Source: Segatella copri
GTDB taxonomy: Bacteria > Bacteroidota > Bacteroidia > Bacteroidales > Bacteroidaceae
Reading direction: 5' to 3'
Length of the DNA stretch: 64,000 bases
Assembly (NCBI RefSeq): GCF_002224675.1
Contig: NZ_NMPZ01000006.1
Span: forward strand, 1-64,000
In this document: piece after piece, positions 47,067 through 54,702 of the stretch
Layout of the letters: each line of letters begins with the position of its first letter
Position numbering within the stretch: position 1 is the stretch's first letter
Notes under the pieces: generated by a model
The model's input: the letters and a program-made list of their open reading frames with translations, nothing else
Database searches by the model: none
What the model was told of the DNA's origin: nothing
Position numbers and translations under genes: made by a program

Positions 47067-49193
47067 TTAATTTTTCTTGAGCACCAGTGCCGAACGGGCT
47101 GGCAAGTAGAGCTTCAACCACTCCTTGCGATCGTTCACATACACAGGGTCATAGTTGGTGAGGTGGGTCATCTCGTCATCGTTCAGACCATTGCCACCAA
47201 ACGCCTTGTTGTCGGTATCGAGTACCACACTATAGGCACCGGTAGGTACCAGGAAGCCATAGTCGGTAAACGAGCGGGTTGGCGAGAAGTTGAAGACGAA
47301 GAGCAGGTCGCCTCTCATATAAGCGAGTACCTGATCGCCATCATTGTGCCAGATTTCAACAACTGGTGTCTTGTTAAAGTTCTTTTCACTCTTAATTGTC
47401 TTGAGCATCTCCTTGTCGAAGTCGCCGAGATAGTGATAGCAGAGATCCTTGTTATCTACCAGATTCCACTGTCTGCGAGCATACTTGTAGCTCCATCCGT
47501 TACCCTCGCGAGGGAAATCAATCCACTCTGGATGACCGAACTCATTACCCATGAAGTTCAGGTAACCGCCATTGATGGTAGAAGCAGTAGCCAGACGGAT
47601 CATCTTGTGCAAGGCAATGCCTCGGTGAACCATATCGTTCTCATCACCCTTCTTGAAGTGCCAGTACATATCAGCATCTATCAGGCGGAAGATGATGGTC
47701 TTGTCGCCTACCAGTGCCTGGTCGTGGCTCTCGCAATAAGAGATGGTCTTCTCGTCTGCACGACGGTTCTTGATTTCCCAGAAGATGCTGGATGGCTTCC
47801 AGTCTTCATCCTTCAGCTCCTTGATGGTCTTGATCCAGTAGTCTGGAATATTCATTGCCATACGATAGTCGAAGCCATAGCCGCCATCGGCAAACTTGGC
47901 AGCCAATCCAGGCATACCGCTCACCTCTTCAGCGATGGTGATGGCATTCTTGTTCACCTCGTGAATCAGACAGTTGGCAAGAGTGAGATAGCAGATAGCG
48001 TTATCATCCTCATGGCCATTGAAGTAGTCACCGTAATTGCAGAACGCCTCTCCCAGACCGTGGCTGTAGTAGAGCATAGAGGTTACACCATCGAAGCGGA
48101 AACCATCGAAGTGGTATTCGCTGAGCCAGTACTTGCAGTTGCTCAGGAGGAAGTGCATCACCTCATCCTTACCATAGTCGAAGCAGAGACTGTCCCAAGC
48201 TGGATGCTCATGTCTGTCGCCAGGATAGAAGTACTGGTTAGGATCACCGGCAAGATTGCCGAGACCTTCCATCTCGTTCTTCACTGCATGAGAGTGAACG
48301 ATATCCATAATGACAGCTATGCCATTCTGATGGGCTGTATCAATGAGAGACTTGAGTTCCTCTGGGGTTCCGAAACGGCTGCTGGCAGCAAAGAAGCTGC
48401 TAACGTGGTAACCGAAGGATCCGTAGTAAGGATGCTCCTGGATAGCCATGATCTGAATGCAGTTGTAACCATCCTCTATGATACGTGGCAACACATTTTC
48501 CTTGAATTCCGTGTAGGTGCCCACCTTCTCGGCATCCTGTCCCATGCCTATGTGGCACTCGTAGATGAGCAGCGGAGTGGTGTTAGGCCTGAAGGTCTTC
48601 TTCTTCCACTTGTAAGGCTCAGGGTTCCATACCTGCGCAGAGAAAATCTTGGTCTGCTCATCCTGAACCACACGGTTAGCCCATGCAGGGATACGCTCGC
48701 CTTCTCCACCTTCCCAGTGCACCTTCATCTTGAAGAGATCACCGTGCTTCATTGCCTTTTCCGAGAGTTTCAACTCCCAGTTGCCGGTGCCCTTGATACG
48801 CTTAGCACGATACTTAGGGCTTTCCTGCCAGCCGTTGAAATCTCCGATGAGATAGATATCTGTAGCATTTGGCGCCCACTCGCGGAACACCCATCCCTTC
48901 TCCGTCTTGTGTAATCCGAAGTAGTCGTATCCGTTGGCGAAATCGCTGAGCGAAATCTTGCCGTTACGGGTAAGCTGGTTGAGTTTCCAGAGCGCATGCT
49001 CATGTCTTCCTACGATAGCAGGCTCAAAGTCTGCCAGATATGGATCGTTCTTCACGAGTCCGATATGTTTTGGGGCAGCAGCCTTCACGGTTTTCTTGGT
49101 AGCGCACTTGGCGGTTGCCTTGCAGGTAGCCTTCTTGGCTGTTGTCTTCTTTGCTGTAGTATTTTTAGCTGAAGTTTTCTTTTCTGTTGCCAT
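47067..49193 (-). CDS. glgB: Glycogen branching enzyme with lysine-rich N-terminal tail
   Basis: GlgB introduces alpha-1,6 branches into glycogen. Residues 43-708 are the enzyme: an N-terminal CBM48 (about 75-175, YFGLHKTEKGWVFREWAPNA) and the GH13 barrel with FDGFRFDGVTSM (nucleophile aspartate), ITIAEEVSGMPG (acid glutamate) and YCESHDQAL (third carboxylate). An all-beta C-domain follows. Residues 1-42 are a K/T/A-rich stretch with TTAKKTTAKKAT repeats, unlike any branching enzyme I know. No later in-frame ATG would give a complete enzyme, so the tail is genuinely part of the frame. The gene follows the YhcH gene by 41 bp. Confidence 0.93.
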   Translation of the reverse strand: MATEKKTSAKNTTAKKTTAKKATCKATAKCATKKTVKAAAPKHIGLVKNDPYLADFEPAIVGRHEHALWKLNQLTRNGKISLSDFANGYDYFGLHKTEKGWVFREWAPNATDIYLIGDFNGWQESPKYRAKRIKGTGNWELKLSEKAMKHGDLFKMKVHWEGGEGERIPAWANRVVQDEQTKIFSAQVWNPEPYKWKKKTFRPNTTPLLIYECHIGMGQDAEKVGTYTEFKENVLPRIIEDGYNCIQIMAIQEHPYYGSFGYHVSSFFAASSRFGTPEELKSLIDTAHQNGIAVIMDIVHSHAVKNEMEGLGNLAGDPNQYFYPGDRHEHPAWDSLCFDYGKDEVMHFLLSNCKYWLSEYHFDGFRFDGVTSMLYYSHGLGEAFCNYGDYFNGHEDDNAICYLTLANCLIHEVNKNAITIAEEVSGMPGLAAKFADGGYGFDYRMAMNIPDYWIKTIKELKDEDWKPSSIFWEIKNRRADEKTISYCESHDQALVGDKTIIFRLIDADMYWHFKKGDENDMVHRGIALHKMIRLATASTINGGYLNFMGNEFGHPEWIDFPREGNGWSYKYARRQWNLVDNKDLCYHYLGDFDKEMLKTIKSEKNFNKTPVVEIWHNDGDQVLAYMRGDLLFVFNFSPTRSFTDYGFLVPTGAYSVVLDTDNKAFGGNGLNDDEMTHLTNYDPVYVNDRKEWLKLYLPARSALVLKKN

Positions 49194-49798: not shown

Positions 49799-50986
49799 TT
49801 AATCCTCAAATCGCTTTCCGTTCTCATATACACCCTTGGCAGTAACCTGACCATTGCAGTCTTTCTCTACGAATCTGCCATCGCGTGCATCCTTCTTATA
49901 GTTGCCCTCGAAGCGCTTGCCGTCCTTGTTCTCCTCGATACAGAAGCCCTCGCGCTTACCATTGTGATAGACACCCTTGAAGCGGTTGCCGTTGGCGTAA
50001 TGTATCACCACGTTGCCATCGACATATCCCTTCTTGAACTCGCCTTCAAAGATGTCGCCGTTCTTCTTGGTCAACTTTCCCCTACCGTTCTGCAGGTCGT
50101 CTTTCCAGCTGCCAACATAGATGTCGCCATTCTTCCATACGAAAGTACCCTGTCCGGAACGCTGGCCATCCACAAACTGTCCGGTGTATTTCGAACCGCT
50201 GGCTGAGCGGAAAATTCCTTCACCGGTACGTTCACCCTGCGAATAATTACCTTCATAGATATCACCGTTATGGAATTTGTAGATACCCTTACCGTCCTGG
50301 ATATCATCCTTCCAGTCGCCAATATAGGTATCACCGTCAGCATATTTAAAGGTACCCTTGCCGGAGCGCTGGTTATCTACCCACTGTCCATCGTAGGTGG
50401 TTCCATCTCCCCAGTCAAAGAATCCATTTCCATTCTTCATGTCGTTCATCCACTGGCCTTTGTATTTGGCACCGTTGGAATAGGTGTAGGTACCTTTTCC
50501 CTGTCGCTTATCCTTATACCAGTCGCCGTCATACTTATCACCATTGTAATAGTACATCACGCCATGTCCGTGCTGGAAATCGCGGAACCAGAGTCCTACA
50601 TACTTATTATTGTTCTGGAAGTAATAGGTACCCTTGCCGTGCTGCTGGTCCTGCAGCCACTGTCCTTCGTATCTCTCGCCATCCGAGAAAGTATATACGC
50701 CATATCCGCTGCGCTTTCCCTTGACGTAGGCACCCTCGTAAGTATCACCATTCTTATATATGGTAGATCCCTTGCCCTGTGGCTTGCCGCTTACCATCTC
50801 TCCCTTATACTGACCGCCATCACGGGTGATGCAGCTACCGAGCGAGATTTTCTGCGCCGACATGGCAAGAGGCGAACAAGCCAGCATCATCGCCAGCATC
50901 ATCTGCTTACCTGTAAGCAAGAACGTGCTTACAGAAAAATATCTTATAGAATTGTTTTTCTTATCATTCATGTCGTTTATCATCAT
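49799..50986 (-). CDS. Exported MORN-repeat protein (14 repeats)
   Basis: I place the start at the ATG at 50986, because the longer frame (to 51094) would begin at the promoter itself. An N-terminal hydrophobic stretch (LLTGKQMMLAMMLACSPLAMSAQ) is probably a signal peptide. The rest is 14 consecutive 23-residue MORN repeats of the form GDxYEGxWxxGxxxGxGxYxxxN, and a partial fifteenth (QVTAKGVYENGKRFED). MORN repeats form elongated beta-hairpin ladders that bind lipids or proteins. The absence of any other domain suggests a structural or scaffold role at the cell envelope. Confidence 0.88.
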   Translation of the reverse strand: MMINDMNDKKNNSIRYFSVSTFLLTGKQMMLAMMLACSPLAMSAQKISLGSCITRDGGQYKGEMVSGKPQGKGSTIYKNGDTYEGAYVKGKRSGYGVYTFSDGERYEGQWLQDQQHGKGTYYFQNNNKYVGLWFRDFQHGHGVMYYYNGDKYDGDWYKDKRQGKGTYTYSNGAKYKGQWMNDMKNGNGFFDWGDGTTYDGQWVDNQRSGKGTFKYADGDTYIGDWKDDIQDGKGIYKFHNGDIYEGNYSQGERTGEGIFRSASGSKYTGQFVDGQRSGQGTFVWKNGDIYVGSWKDDLQNGRGKLTKKNGDIFEGEFKKGYVDGNVVIHYANGNRFKGVYHNGKREGFCIEENKDGKRFEGNYKKDARDGRFVEKDCNGQVTAKGVYENGKRFED

Positions 50987-51091
50987 TTTGATTTCAATAA
51001 GAACCGGTATTACAACCGTTTCCGAGCCACATGATTGCGAGTCCAGAACGGAGTTTGACCGATTCCGAACCGATATATTCGATTCAATCCC

Positions 51092-51123
51092 CAAAAGTAA
51101 CGCTTTTTCGGCAAACCGCCAAA
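51092..51123 (-). promoter_or_regulatory. Promoter of the MORN-repeat gene
   Basis: The minus-strand TACTTTTG (51092-51099) is preceded by TTTG (51120-51123) with a 20-bp spacer. It implies a leader of about 100 nt. Confidence 0.6.
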
Positions 51124-51268: not shown

Positions 51269-51979
51269 ATGATATTAAACTGCGCCATCATAGATGAAGA
51301 TCCTGAGGCTTTGGCTTTGCTGAAGCATTATGTTGAGGAAACACCATCCCTCAATCTTATCGGTGCGTACCACAACGCCATCGAAGCTGTAGATGGAATC
51401 CACCACAGCCATCTTGACATTCTGTTTCTTGCCATCCACATGCAGCAGATCAGCGGACTCGAGTTTGCCAAACTCGTGCCGATGAACGTGAAGATTATCT
51501 TCACCACCGCATTCAAGGAGTATGCCATCGAAGCATACAAGGTGAACGCCTTCGACTATCTGGTCAAGCCTATCCTATACGAAGACTTCATGCAGACCTG
51601 CCAGAAGGTATTCGACCATTATATGCAGGACGATACCTACAACCCTATCAAGCGCGATGGCTTTGTAGTAGTGAGGAACGAAAGCAAATACACCCGAATT
51701 CCTTTCGAGAACATACTCTTTATCGAGAGCGTGAAAGATTACGTGAAGTTCCACATGGCGGACGGACGCAACATCATGACCCTGGGCAACCTGAAACGCC
51801 TGGAAGAGAAACTTCCGCGCCAGAAATTCAGAAGAGTGCACCGCTCTTTCATTGCCAATCTAACTAATTTTGACTACATCCAGAACATGAAGGTAGTCTA
51901 TGGCAAACTGGCGGTGCCTATCTCTGACACCAACAAGGATGATGTGGTGAAATTCGTAGAAGAACACGGAATCAACTAA
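51269..51979 (+). CDS. LytTR response regulator with a degenerate receiver
   Basis: A 236-residue transcription regulator. The receiver domain (1-120) keeps the acidic pocket D9-E10-D11, the threonine in FTTAF and the lysine in LVKP (K100). However, the phospho-acceptor position in the FLDIxMP motif reads FLAIHMQ, with alanine at residue 55 (codon GCC). The C-terminal LytTR DNA-binding domain (about 135-236) has the usual ENILFIESVKDYVKFH and FRRVHRSFIANL motifs. No sensor kinase is adjacent. It probably acts without aspartate phosphorylation. It converges with the CBM20-HAD gene, their stop codons overlapping by 4 bp. Confidence 0.9.
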   Translation: MILNCAIIDEDPEALALLKHYVEETPSLNLIGAYHNAIEAVDGIHHSHLDILFLAIHMQQISGLEFAKLVPMNVKIIFTTAFKEYAIEAYKVNAFDYLVKPILYEDFMQTCQKVFDHYMQDDTYNPIKRDGFVVVRNESKYTRIPFENILFIESVKDYVKFHMADGRNIMTLGNLKRLEEKLPRQKFRRVHRSFIANLTNFDYIQNMKVVYGKLAVPISDTNKDDVVKFVEEHGIN

Positions 51980-53412
51980 CAGATCTGCAGCGGGGATGTA
52001 ACAAATATTCTAGCATCATGTGCGATAAGGAATTCGAGATCGCGGAATCCCCAAAGCACACTGATGCAAGGCATTCCGCTGTTCTTGGCGGTCATGACAT
52101 CCACATCACTGTCGCCGATATAGACTGCGCTTTCCCTATCGGCATTCATCTGACGCAAAGCCTCATTTACAGTATCCGGGGCTGGCTTTTTCTGAATATC
52201 CTCACGTTCACCGATAGCCACATCTACCAAGTCGCCAAAGAAATGGCGACAGAGGGCTTGGGTGGCAGCATAAAACTTATTGCTCACCACGGCAATATTC
52301 TTACCTCTATCCTTCAACTCCTGTAACATTTCCATCACACCCGGATAAGGCTGCGTGGTATCAAGATTATGCATCATATAGTGCTTGCGGAAATCGGCAA
52401 ACACCTGTTCAAACTTCTCATTTTCCAAACCTTCCGGAATGGCACGTTCCATCAGTTTCTTGACACCGTTTCCAACAAAGCGGCGCACCTCATCTACACT
52501 ACGCTCAGGAAAACCATTCGTCTTGAGGGCATAATTGCAGCTCGCAGCCAAATCGCCCAGGGTAGAAAGCAAGGTACCATCCAAGTCGAAGATATAGGTA
52601 TCGAAATTAAACTGAGCATGAGGTGGCATCTTCTTCACACGGAATTCACCGCCATGTAGGATACAGACATCCTTGGAATAAAGTCGGATTTCATCCGGAC
52701 CGCTAACCGCATAGCGGTTGGCTTTCTCCTCCTCATCATGGCCATAGGCGATACCTGTTCCCATGGTGCGATTCTCACCAAACTCCCATCTCTTAAACTG
52801 ATGGGTCCTGGCATCCACTACCACATATTTATACTCCAGCGGAGCCTCCAAAGCCTGTACGTTGACAGAGAGCACCCAACTGGTTCCGCCCTGATGAATC
52901 ATCGGAAGATAATGGTCAGTATTCCACTCGCCCAAGGTTGGATGATTACCCAGCAGTGCCACAGCCTCACCCTCGTGAAGCTGAGGAGCAGAAACCTTGA
53001 AGATCACGGTCTGCTCGAACAGAGGCAGCTTGGCAACCTCATCACCCGTCCAGACTACCGGAGACGTATAGTTGATGAAACCGCCCAGCAGCTCATTCTC
53101 ATCATCCAGCCAGAAGTCGGACAGGATATAGTTTCTGTTCGCCTCATACACATAGGCTCTAGGAGAAGCTACAGATTCCCTGCGCACCACATTTCCCTCG
53201 GCATCCACCACCTTATAATAATAGGCTACAGCCACAAAGGGATGATGACGGTTTTCCAAAGTATGGGTTTCAGCCATCCAATGATAACCATCTACTGTGT
53301 TCATCGCCAGATCTACCACCTTCCGCTTTCCGTCACGTGCGAAGAAGGTGATATCGGCATGCAAAGACTCCCCCCACTCTGCCTTGTATGATATTGTAAA
53401 TTTCATTCTCAT
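51976..53412 (-). CDS. Tandem CBM20 starch-binding domains fused to a HAD phosphatase
   Basis: The 478-residue protein has three parts. Residues 1-125 (MKFTISYKAEWGESLHADIT, then YYYKVVDAEGNVVRRES) match the first carbohydrate-binding module at the N-terminus of Bacteroidetes 4-alpha-glucanotransferases. Residues 134-217 form a clear CBM20 with GNHPTLGEW (W163), W179, LEYKYVVVD and W209. Residues 270-478 are a phosphoglycolate-phosphatase-like HAD domain with every motif intact: FDLDGT (D276, D278), S377, K408/K409 and GDSDVD (D434). There is no signal peptide, so it is cytoplasmic. By inference it dephosphorylates a glucan or glucan-derived phosphate. The nearest carbohydrate gene is glgB, 2.8 kb away. 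Confidence 0.85.
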   Translation of the reverse strand: MRMKFTISYKAEWGESLHADITFFARDGKRKVVDLAMNTVDGYHWMAETHTLENRHHPFVAVAYYYKVVDAEGNVVRRESVASPRAYVYEANRNYILSDFWLDDENELLGGFINYTSPVVWTGDEVAKLPLFEQTVIFKVSAPQLHEGEAVALLGNHPTLGEWNTDHYLPMIHQGGTSWVLSVNVQALEAPLEYKYVVVDARTHQFKRWEFGENRTMGTGIAYGHDEEEKANRYAVSGPDEIRLYSKDVCILHGGEFRVKKMPPHAQFNFDTYIFDLDGTLLSTLGDLAASCNYALKTNGFPERSVDEVRRFVGNGVKKLMERAIPEGLENEKFEQVFADFRKHYMMHNLDTTQPYPGVMEMLQELKDRGKNIAVVSNKFYAATQALCRHFFGDLVDVAIGEREDIQKKPAPDTVNEALRQMNADRESAVYIGDSDVDVMTAKNSGMPCISVLWGFRDLEFLIAHDARIFVTSPLQIC

Positions 53413-53458: not shown

Positions 53459-53466
53459 CAAAGGTA
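53459..53466 (-). promoter_or_regulatory. Promoter -7 box of the CBM20-HAD gene
   Basis: The minus-strand TACCTTTG matches TAnnTTTG, 46 bp before the start. No clear -33 box is present. Confidence 0.45.
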
Positions 53467-53649: not shown

Positions 53650-54702
53650 ATGAAGAAAAAGAAAACAACTTCTAAGTTTTACCTCTATGGCGCCATCGGC
53701 TGCATCGCCGTCATTGCCATCGTAGGTTATCTCTACTGCTTCTCATCATTCTCGAAAAGCAGCGAAACCAAGTATGTATATATCGATGCCGATGACAACA
53801 TCGACTCTGTATATAATAAGGTGAAACCTTTCGCCAAGAGCATCCCGATGCAGGCATTCCGCACACTCACCCTTCATTCAGGCTATGCCGACCACATCCG
53901 CACCGGTAGATACGCCATCCATCCTGGAGACGGAGCACTCAAGGTCTGGCGTCACATGAAGAATGGTTTGCAGGAACCTGTCAACCTCACCATACCTTCC
54001 GTACGCACCATCGACAAGCTCGCCGTAGAGCTGAGCAAGAAACTGATGCTCGACAGCACAGAAATCAAGAAGGCACTCACAGATGAGACGGTTTGCGAGA
54101 AGATGGGCTACGACACAGCCACCATCGCCTGCATGTTTATCCCTAACACCTACGATATCTACTGGAATGTATCCATCGAGAAATTCCTGGAACGCATGAA
54201 GAAAGAGAGCGACAAGTTCTGGAACTTTGAACGCACGGAGAAGGCCAAGACGATGAAGCTCACTCCTAACCAGGTGATTACACTTGCCAGTATTGTAGAT
54301 GAGGAAACTGCCAACAACGGCGAAAAACCGATGATTGCAGGTATGTACTACAACCGACTGATGCTGCGCAATGCAGAGTATCCGGAAGGTATGCCACTGC
54401 AGGCTGACCCAACCATCAAGTTCGCCTGGAAGCGTTTCGAACTGAAGCGTATCTACAACAACCTCCTGTACATCAAGAGCCCATACAACACCTACAAGAA
54501 TCCAGGTCTTCCTCCTGGTCCTATCCGCATTCCATCGGTTGCCGGCATTGATGCCGTACTCAACCATGTAAAGCACGAGTATCTCTATATGTGCGCCAAG
54601 GAGGATTTCAGCGGCACCCACAATTTTGCCCGCACCTATCAGGAGCACCTGCAGAATGCAGCAAAATATTCCAAGGCACTCAACGAAAGAGGAATCAAGT
54701 AA
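53650..54702 (+). CDS. mltG: Endolytic murein transglycosylase MltG
   Basis: MltG cleaves nascent glycan strands and sets their length. The 350-residue protein has one transmembrane helix (about 12-33), an N-terminal LysM-like part (about 40-105) and the YceG catalytic domain. LASIVDEETANN (212-223) carries the probable catalytic glutamate (E219 by alignment to the IVEKET motif), followed by GMYYNRL. The C-terminal segments LLYIKSPYNTYKNPGLPPGPI and NPGLPPGPIRIPSVAGIDA are diagnostic. Confidence 0.95.
   Translation: MKKKKTTSKFYLYGAIGCIAVIAIVGYLYCFSSFSKSSETKYVYIDADDNIDSVYNKVKPFAKSIPMQAFRTLTLHSGYADHIRTGRYAIHPGDGALKVWRHMKNGLQEPVNLTIPSVRTIDKLAVELSKKLMLDSTEIKKALTDETVCEKMGYDTATIACMFIPNTYDIYWNVSIEKFLERMKKESDKFWNFERTEKAKTMKLTPNQVITLASIVDEETANNGEKPMIAGMYYNRLMLRNAEYPEGMPLQADPTIKFAWKRFELKRIYNNLLYIKSPYNTYKNPGLPPGPIRIPSVAGIDAVLNHVKHEYLYMCAKEDFSGTHNFARTYQEHLQNAAKYSKALNERGIK

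Follow-up and report, generated by a model that had tools for sequence, protein, structure and literature searches.

The window, that is, the whole stretch of 64,000 nucleotides of Segatella copri DNA that was analyzed, carries a gene in which a pair of starch-binding-type domains (CBM20a and CBM20b) is joined in frame to a phosphatase of the HAD type (Table 1). The gene order MltG-type, fusion, LytTR, MORN, YhcH, and GlgB is common to the window, a one-contig genome of the genus (G044), and S. copri iA622 (L057); the MltG-type name of the first gene is our assumption. A gene for a MORN-repeat protein (49799-51094) separates the GlgB and YhcH genes from the LytTR regulator, and this arrangement is found in all three. 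At their stop codons the LytTR regulator (plus strand) and the fusion (minus strand) overlap by 4 bases (51976-51979). The candidate promoter motif TACCTTTG was likened by us to TAnnTTTG, which we take to be the Bacteroidetes -7 box.

Table 1. Coordinates of the fusion gene, its domains, and surrounding features in the window
Feature	Position	Strand	Basis and remarks
CBM20-CBM20-HAD fusion CDS, 478 aa	51979..53412	minus	Single open frame; stop 51976-51978
CBM20a, residues 1-101, divergent first starch-binding-type beta sandwich	53110..53412	minus	AlphaFold2 model and PDB matches
CBM20b, residues 134-219, canonical CBM20 with site-1 residues W163, K195, W209, N214	52756..53013	minus	Pfam, alignment
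Linker, residues 220-267, where MalQ2 carries GH77	52612..52755	minus	Low pLDDT, alignments
HAD phosphatase, residues 268-478 (D276, D278, S377, K408/K409, D434, D438)	51979..52611	minus	Pfam, model, structure superposition
Helical C1 cap, residues ~285-350, between HAD motifs I and II	52363..52560	minus	Four helices in model
TACCTTTG, -7-box-like, 46 bases 5' of fusion ATG	53459..53466	minus	Sequence reading; candidate, without statistics
LytTR response regulator, convergent with fusion	51269..51979	plus	ORF and Pfam
MltG-type gene, divergent from fusion; locus marker in relatives	53650..54702	plus	
GlgB-type branching enzyme, CBM_48 and alpha-amylase domains	47067..49193	minus	Pfam

Two of the three domains were recognized directly by Pfam, namely CBM20b (PF00686, CBM_20, residues 135-219; 55.6 bits against a cut-off of 23.3) and the phosphatase (PF13419, HAD_2, residues 273-452; 134.5 bits against a cut-off of 23.8). 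CBM20a gave no CBM_20 match up to an E-value of 10, and its sole Pfam match was DUF3710 (E 0.16, below the cut-off of that family). Folded alone with 27 relatives, CBM20a was modeled by AlphaFold2 as a beta sandwich (mean pLDDT 82), for which all 15 best PDB matches obtained with Foldseek were chains that carry CBM20 (E 2.2e-4 to 6.1e-3); their TM-scores were modest, at 0.48-0.55 by query length. The matched chains belong to beta-amylase, glucoamylase, maltogenic amylase, human STBD1, and human GPCPD1; for some of them the presence of a CBM20 is presumed by us. As modeled, residues 1-101 have the CBM20 fold despite the absent Pfam match. The model of the full fusion (mean pLDDT 79, pTM 0.52) consists of a first sandwich (1-100), a low-confidence stretch, a second sandwich (134-217), and the HAD domain with its helical cap (268-478); the linker falls below a pLDDT of 50 at 219-245 and 256-267, and the placement of the domains relative to each other is not fixed.

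In this model, motifs I-IV and a helical cap between motifs I and II are all present, which points to a C1-capped member of the HAD superfamily; we take D276 to be the nucleophile and D278 the acid/base. The HAD part with its cap could be superposed on 2hi0, a putative phosphoglycolate phosphatase (VIA-align; Z 29.2, 211 residues, rmsd 2.0); with the full fusion model VIA-align listed HAD chains only, because the HAD domain fills the list. The fusion shares all motifs and the cap with this free-standing phosphoglycolate-phosphatase-type enzyme but differs in carrying CBM20 domains and in scoring under the NCBIfam cut-offs, reaching neither phosphoglycolate phosphatase equivalog (TIGR01449, 126.4 of 180 bits; NF009695, 132.6 of 225 bits). 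Among the Pfam matches of the fusion, GH77 (PF02446) was absent up to an E-value of 1, as was the dual-specificity phosphatase family PF00782. The original prediction, which had read the frame as a CBM20 pair followed by a complete HAD domain, is thus borne out by Pfam, the AlphaFold2 model, and the superposition on 2hi0, and the catalytic residues that it named (D276/D278, S377, K408/409, and D434) are present; the CBM20 fold that it assigned to residues 1-217 is backed by Pfam for CBM20b and by the model only for CBM20a.

When 200 genus genomes were searched with the complete fusion protein, three gave full-length matches: the genome of the window itself, G044 (66% identity), and G011 (52% identity). 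Some match at E 0.001 was obtained in 198 of the 200 genomes, and in 146 of 149 genomes among the matches listed it was limited to the HAD part, at 55-73% identity there. When a profile of four fusions was run against 398 genus genomes, the full-length matches (E 1e-108 or better) were these three and G208, whose fusion scored 476 bits, followed by 417 bits for the next-ranked match, a HAD alone. A scan of the named genomes with the full fusion protein found no relatives; the CBM20-pair profile found 292, and the best 80 of these were kept as loci, among which is one fusion, that of S. copri iA622. By hand count, the HAD gene is present in 58 of the same 80 loci and absent in 22, in some through a contig end. 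Three named loci duplicate genomes of the genus set (L082 = L037, L072 = L044, and L113 = L050). On how widely the fusion occurs in the genus, a question raised with the original prediction, the searches gave four cases among 398 genomes plus S. copri iA622, and these five fusions (window, G044, G011, G208, and L057) were used in the comparisons below. Those of G011 and G208 are the more divergent ones.

An assembly error or frameshift that joined two genes would fit the finding that the halves are separate genes in most of the relatives seen. However, no direct sign of error was detected in the window, and the same fusion stands at the same locus in one-contig G044 and in S. copri iA622, with the HAD parts of the window, G044, and L057 forming one clade (99/93 in the HAD tree, whose bootstrap has not settled). 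Since both the fusion and the gene order recur in these two genomes, we judged an artefact to be extremely improbable and concluded from the genome comparison that the fusion is genuine. The original prediction had named separate halves in close relatives as a possible mark of an artefact. Neighboring separate genes were indeed found, but they point to the evolutionary source of the fusion and not to an assembly error.

The window genome has two CBM_20 places, one of which is the fusion and the other an ordinary CBM20-CBM20-GH77 MalQ (895-aa frame, G000:C16), so that a separate CBM20-MalQ is kept in addition to the fusion, a point on which the original prediction had called for a survey. We liken this 4-alpha-glucanotransferase architecture to the plant DPE2 type. 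The N-terminal half of the fusion is homologous to the CBM20 pair of the Bacteroidetes MalQ but lacks the GH77 domain, the HAD domain standing in its place. The ordinary MalQ of the same genome was rejected as the source of this half, to which it is 25-26% identical, versus 38-43% for the CBM20 pair of MalQ2, the name given here to a second MalQ-type enzyme linked to the HAD gene; the latter range rests on nine rows, some of them shortened forms. The predicted descent from a MalQ-type CBM20 region therefore held as to the type, but the closest relative is the HAD-linked MalQ2 and not the ordinary enzyme.

In 200 genus genomes, the CBM20-pair profile found 93 places in 93 genomes at a score of at least 182 bits, separated from a lower group of the ordinary MalQ type that scored at most 163 bits among the matches listed. 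The place of the HAD gene is known for 86 of the 93 MalQ2-type genomes among the matches listed, the other 7 lying outside them. In 71 of these 86, the pair either immediately precedes the HAD gene, with both read in the same direction, or shares a frame with it; these comprise 60 MalQ2 frames of at least 850 aa, 5 shortened genes (G136, G002, G165, G178, and G093), 1 split frame (G191), 2 CBM20-pair-only genes, and 3 fusions. In the other 15, the pair and the HAD gene are on different contigs (13 genomes), 6.8 kb apart (G081), or on opposite strands (G027). The two CBM20-pair-only genes (L055 and L164, in G038 and G076) encode ~258 aa directly before the HAD gene, in a different frame and unfused. 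At 13 retrieved genus loci with a HAD gene but without a MalQ2-type pair, GH77 matches above 60 bits were not seen.

Most GH77-bearing MalQ2-type proteins (79 of 87, repeats included) keep all five checked positions R, D, E, H, and D, which were read by alignment to the MalQ of the same genome and which we take to be catalytic in GH77; judged by these residues, MalQ2 looks active. The eight exceptions are the shortened L037, L038, L039, L040, and L082 (L037 and L082 being one genome, Hoylesella oralis ATCC 33269), the contig-end L067, L112 with unread bases, and the split frame L134. In L037, L038, L039, and L040 the GH77 domain is gutted and its catalytic residues are lost, while the CBM20 pair is kept and the HAD gene still adjoins. 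The shortened exceptions indicate that GH77 was lost or broken in several lineages with retention of the CBM20 pair. By the fewest changes, the fusion state takes three changes on the HAD tree (two forced by starred branches) and two on the CBM20-pair tree (one forced), the internally deleted forms take two and one, respectively, and the C-truncated and CBM20-only forms one each, which brings the CBM20-pair tree to five GH77 losses with the pair kept. In both trees the bootstrap has not settled; L151 is a long branch in both and L042 in the pair tree. Between CBM20b and HAD, the fusions of G011 and G208 carry additional residues that look, by eye, like the start of GH77, as separate deletions would leave. 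Compared across genomes, the locus shows intermediate steps in which a catalytic domain was lost and its carbohydrate anchor was passed to the neighboring gene. By this comparison, the locus in relatives holds a second CBM20-CBM20-GH77 enzyme with a separate HAD gene behind it, and in the window locus GH77 is missing and the CBM20 pair has become joined in frame to HAD.

In other genera of the same family, related HAD domains also stand at the C-terminal end of one-frame fusions with unrelated proteins, where they are preceded by an RNase III with a dsRNA-binding domain (dsrm; L155), PanE/ApbA (L156 and L157, two genomes), or a PPDK_N protein (L152, 1213-aa frame). These four loci are wrongly labeled 'HADalone' in the HAD tree, as part of the set L152-L157. 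The 505-aa frame of L153 was rejected as a HAD fusion, its upstream part having no family match, with a chance-like frame and an inner start before HAD; L154, of the same frame length, was set aside by its likeness to L153. The HAD gene thus seems to be fusion-prone, joining whatever precedes it, and the unrelated partners imply that the identity of a fusion partner says little about the chemistry or substrate of the HAD domain.

The same promiscuity (RNase III, PanE, and PPDK_N protein) would suit an explanation in which the CBM20 pair is a leftover that gives the HAD domain a promoter, a start, and a soluble fold, with glucan binding irrelevant and the old job of the enzyme unchanged. Because keeping the N-terminal part also keeps the promoter and start codon, some retention bias is expected even without a binding function. 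Between the window and G044, identity is 81% in HAD, 55% in CBM20a, and 64% in CBM20b, whereas 153 MalQ2 pairs at 80-85% HAD identity have CBM20a/CBM20b medians of 68/78% and tenth percentiles of 62/71%. The CBM20s of the fusions are thus less alike than those of full-length MalQ2 at equal HAD divergence, and their constraint is relaxed. In addition, residue 80 of CBM20a (window 53173-53175) is serine in four of the five fusions, three of which are one clade, and tryptophan in all 26 rows of alignment A5 other than the window and L057, so that CBM20a may no longer bind. W80 may have contacted the lost GH77 domain or may take part in binding; the latter role is no more than a guess, since a weak profile comparison of CBM20a with CBM20b (probability 8%, P 0.004) ends just before this residue.

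Against a mere leftover, the frames have stayed open in fusions at 70-81% HAD identity and the codon-position bias is kept in both CBM20s. Codon positions 1/2/3 differ between the window and G044 by 31/25/59% in CBM20a, 29/16/56% in CBM20b, and 18/7/46% in HAD; these differences were used instead of dN/dS because synonymous changes were saturated or undefined. The pattern shows purifying selection on CBM20a and CBM20b that is weaker than that on HAD. Moreover, GH77-less CBM20 genes also persist unfused, and the CBM20b residues W163, K195, W209, and N214 are kept in all five fusions. In an alignment that also took in STBD1 and a CGTase, these residues pair with positions of 1ac0, a domain of A. 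niger glucoamylase, and presumably match its site-1 residues W543, K578, W590, and N595, respectively. On balance, we consider such a leftover possible, as a secondary explanation. With site 1 intact in all five fusions and the codons of the CBM20 pair under purifying selection, glucan binding by the fusion is plausible.

We lean slightly toward the interpretation that the fusion is a cytoplasmic phosphatase for small molecules that is anchored on glycogen or another alpha-glucan, and the tethered phosphatase offered in the original prediction is a fair reading. CBM20b would bind alpha-glucan and hold the HAD domain on the glycogen particle, where the latter would act by the standard aspartyl-phosphate mechanism; its residues D276, D278, S377, K409, D434, and D438 are kept in all five fusions and K408 in four, the fifth having R. 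C1 caps in HAD enzymes enclose small substrates, and polymer-acting HAD members are usually capless. The substrate would probably be a small phosphometabolite entering under the cap, not phosphate buried in a polymer, and could be either the ancestral housekeeping substrate of the HAD enzyme or a sugar phosphate that arises on the surface of glycogen.

The original prediction had also offered a laforin-like activity, should the protein act on glucan. In this proposal, phosphorylated glycogen or starch would be brought by the CBM20 pair to the HAD domain, which would strip the glucan phosphate as laforin does, with another fold. That a single protein unites CBM20 with a phosphatase and keeps its glucan-contact residues is consistent with this proposal, as is the glycogen branching enzyme gene near three of the fusion loci. 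However, the modeled C1 cap covers the active site; most of the relatives listed have the HAD domain without CBM20, and elsewhere it has other partners. No recognizable CBM20-bearing glucan dikinase was found in the whole genome, where the two CBM_20 and two PPDK_N places are on different contigs, and a PF00782 match is absent from the whole genome at E 0.001, leaving it without a dual-specificity phosphatase. A convergent prokaryotic glucan phosphatase therefore appears unlikely, and its wider form, a Segatella/Prevotella enzyme that arose separately from laforin and SEX4 and acts on glycogen inside the cell or on starch fragments taken up from outside, is equally doubtful. That GH77 was reduced repeatedly while the CBM20 pair persisted next to HAD would suit a glucan phosphatase assembled through GH77 loss from a glucanotransferase, which we likewise find improbable. 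Given the small-molecule-type cap, the HAD-only matches in 146 of the 149 genomes listed, and the unrelated fusion partners, glucan dephosphorylation by the fusion is not supported.

Laforin and the fusion are alike in that CBM20 precedes a phosphatase domain within a single chain; in laforin the latter is a DSP domain, and here it is a HAD fold with an Asp nucleophile and a cap, preceded by two CBM20s. In PMC2714694, each domain is stated to occur in bacteria but never both in one protein, and a bacterial glucan phosphatase is considered unlikely. The present fusion, joining a CBM20 pair to a phosphatase of another fold, makes that statement directly testable. No report was found of a CBM20-HAD or CBM20-phosphoglycolate phosphatase protein in a literature search that most subscription papers and all preprints fell outside, or, in mostly open papers, of a bacterial or prokaryotic laforin or a Prevotella copri 4-alpha-glucanotransferase with CBM20; the available part of PMC11046441 does not mention 'CBM20'. 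Because no CBM20-HAD protein was found in print, we take the CBM20-CBM20-HAD architecture to be a new combination built from known families. CBM20 domains in non-glycoside-hydrolase proteins have a parallel in human STBD1 and GPCPD1 (PDB 8x8k and 2z0b), which are eukaryotic and have other partner domains. Segatella copri, a species of the gut, belongs to the group in which the domain hand-over described here is seen.
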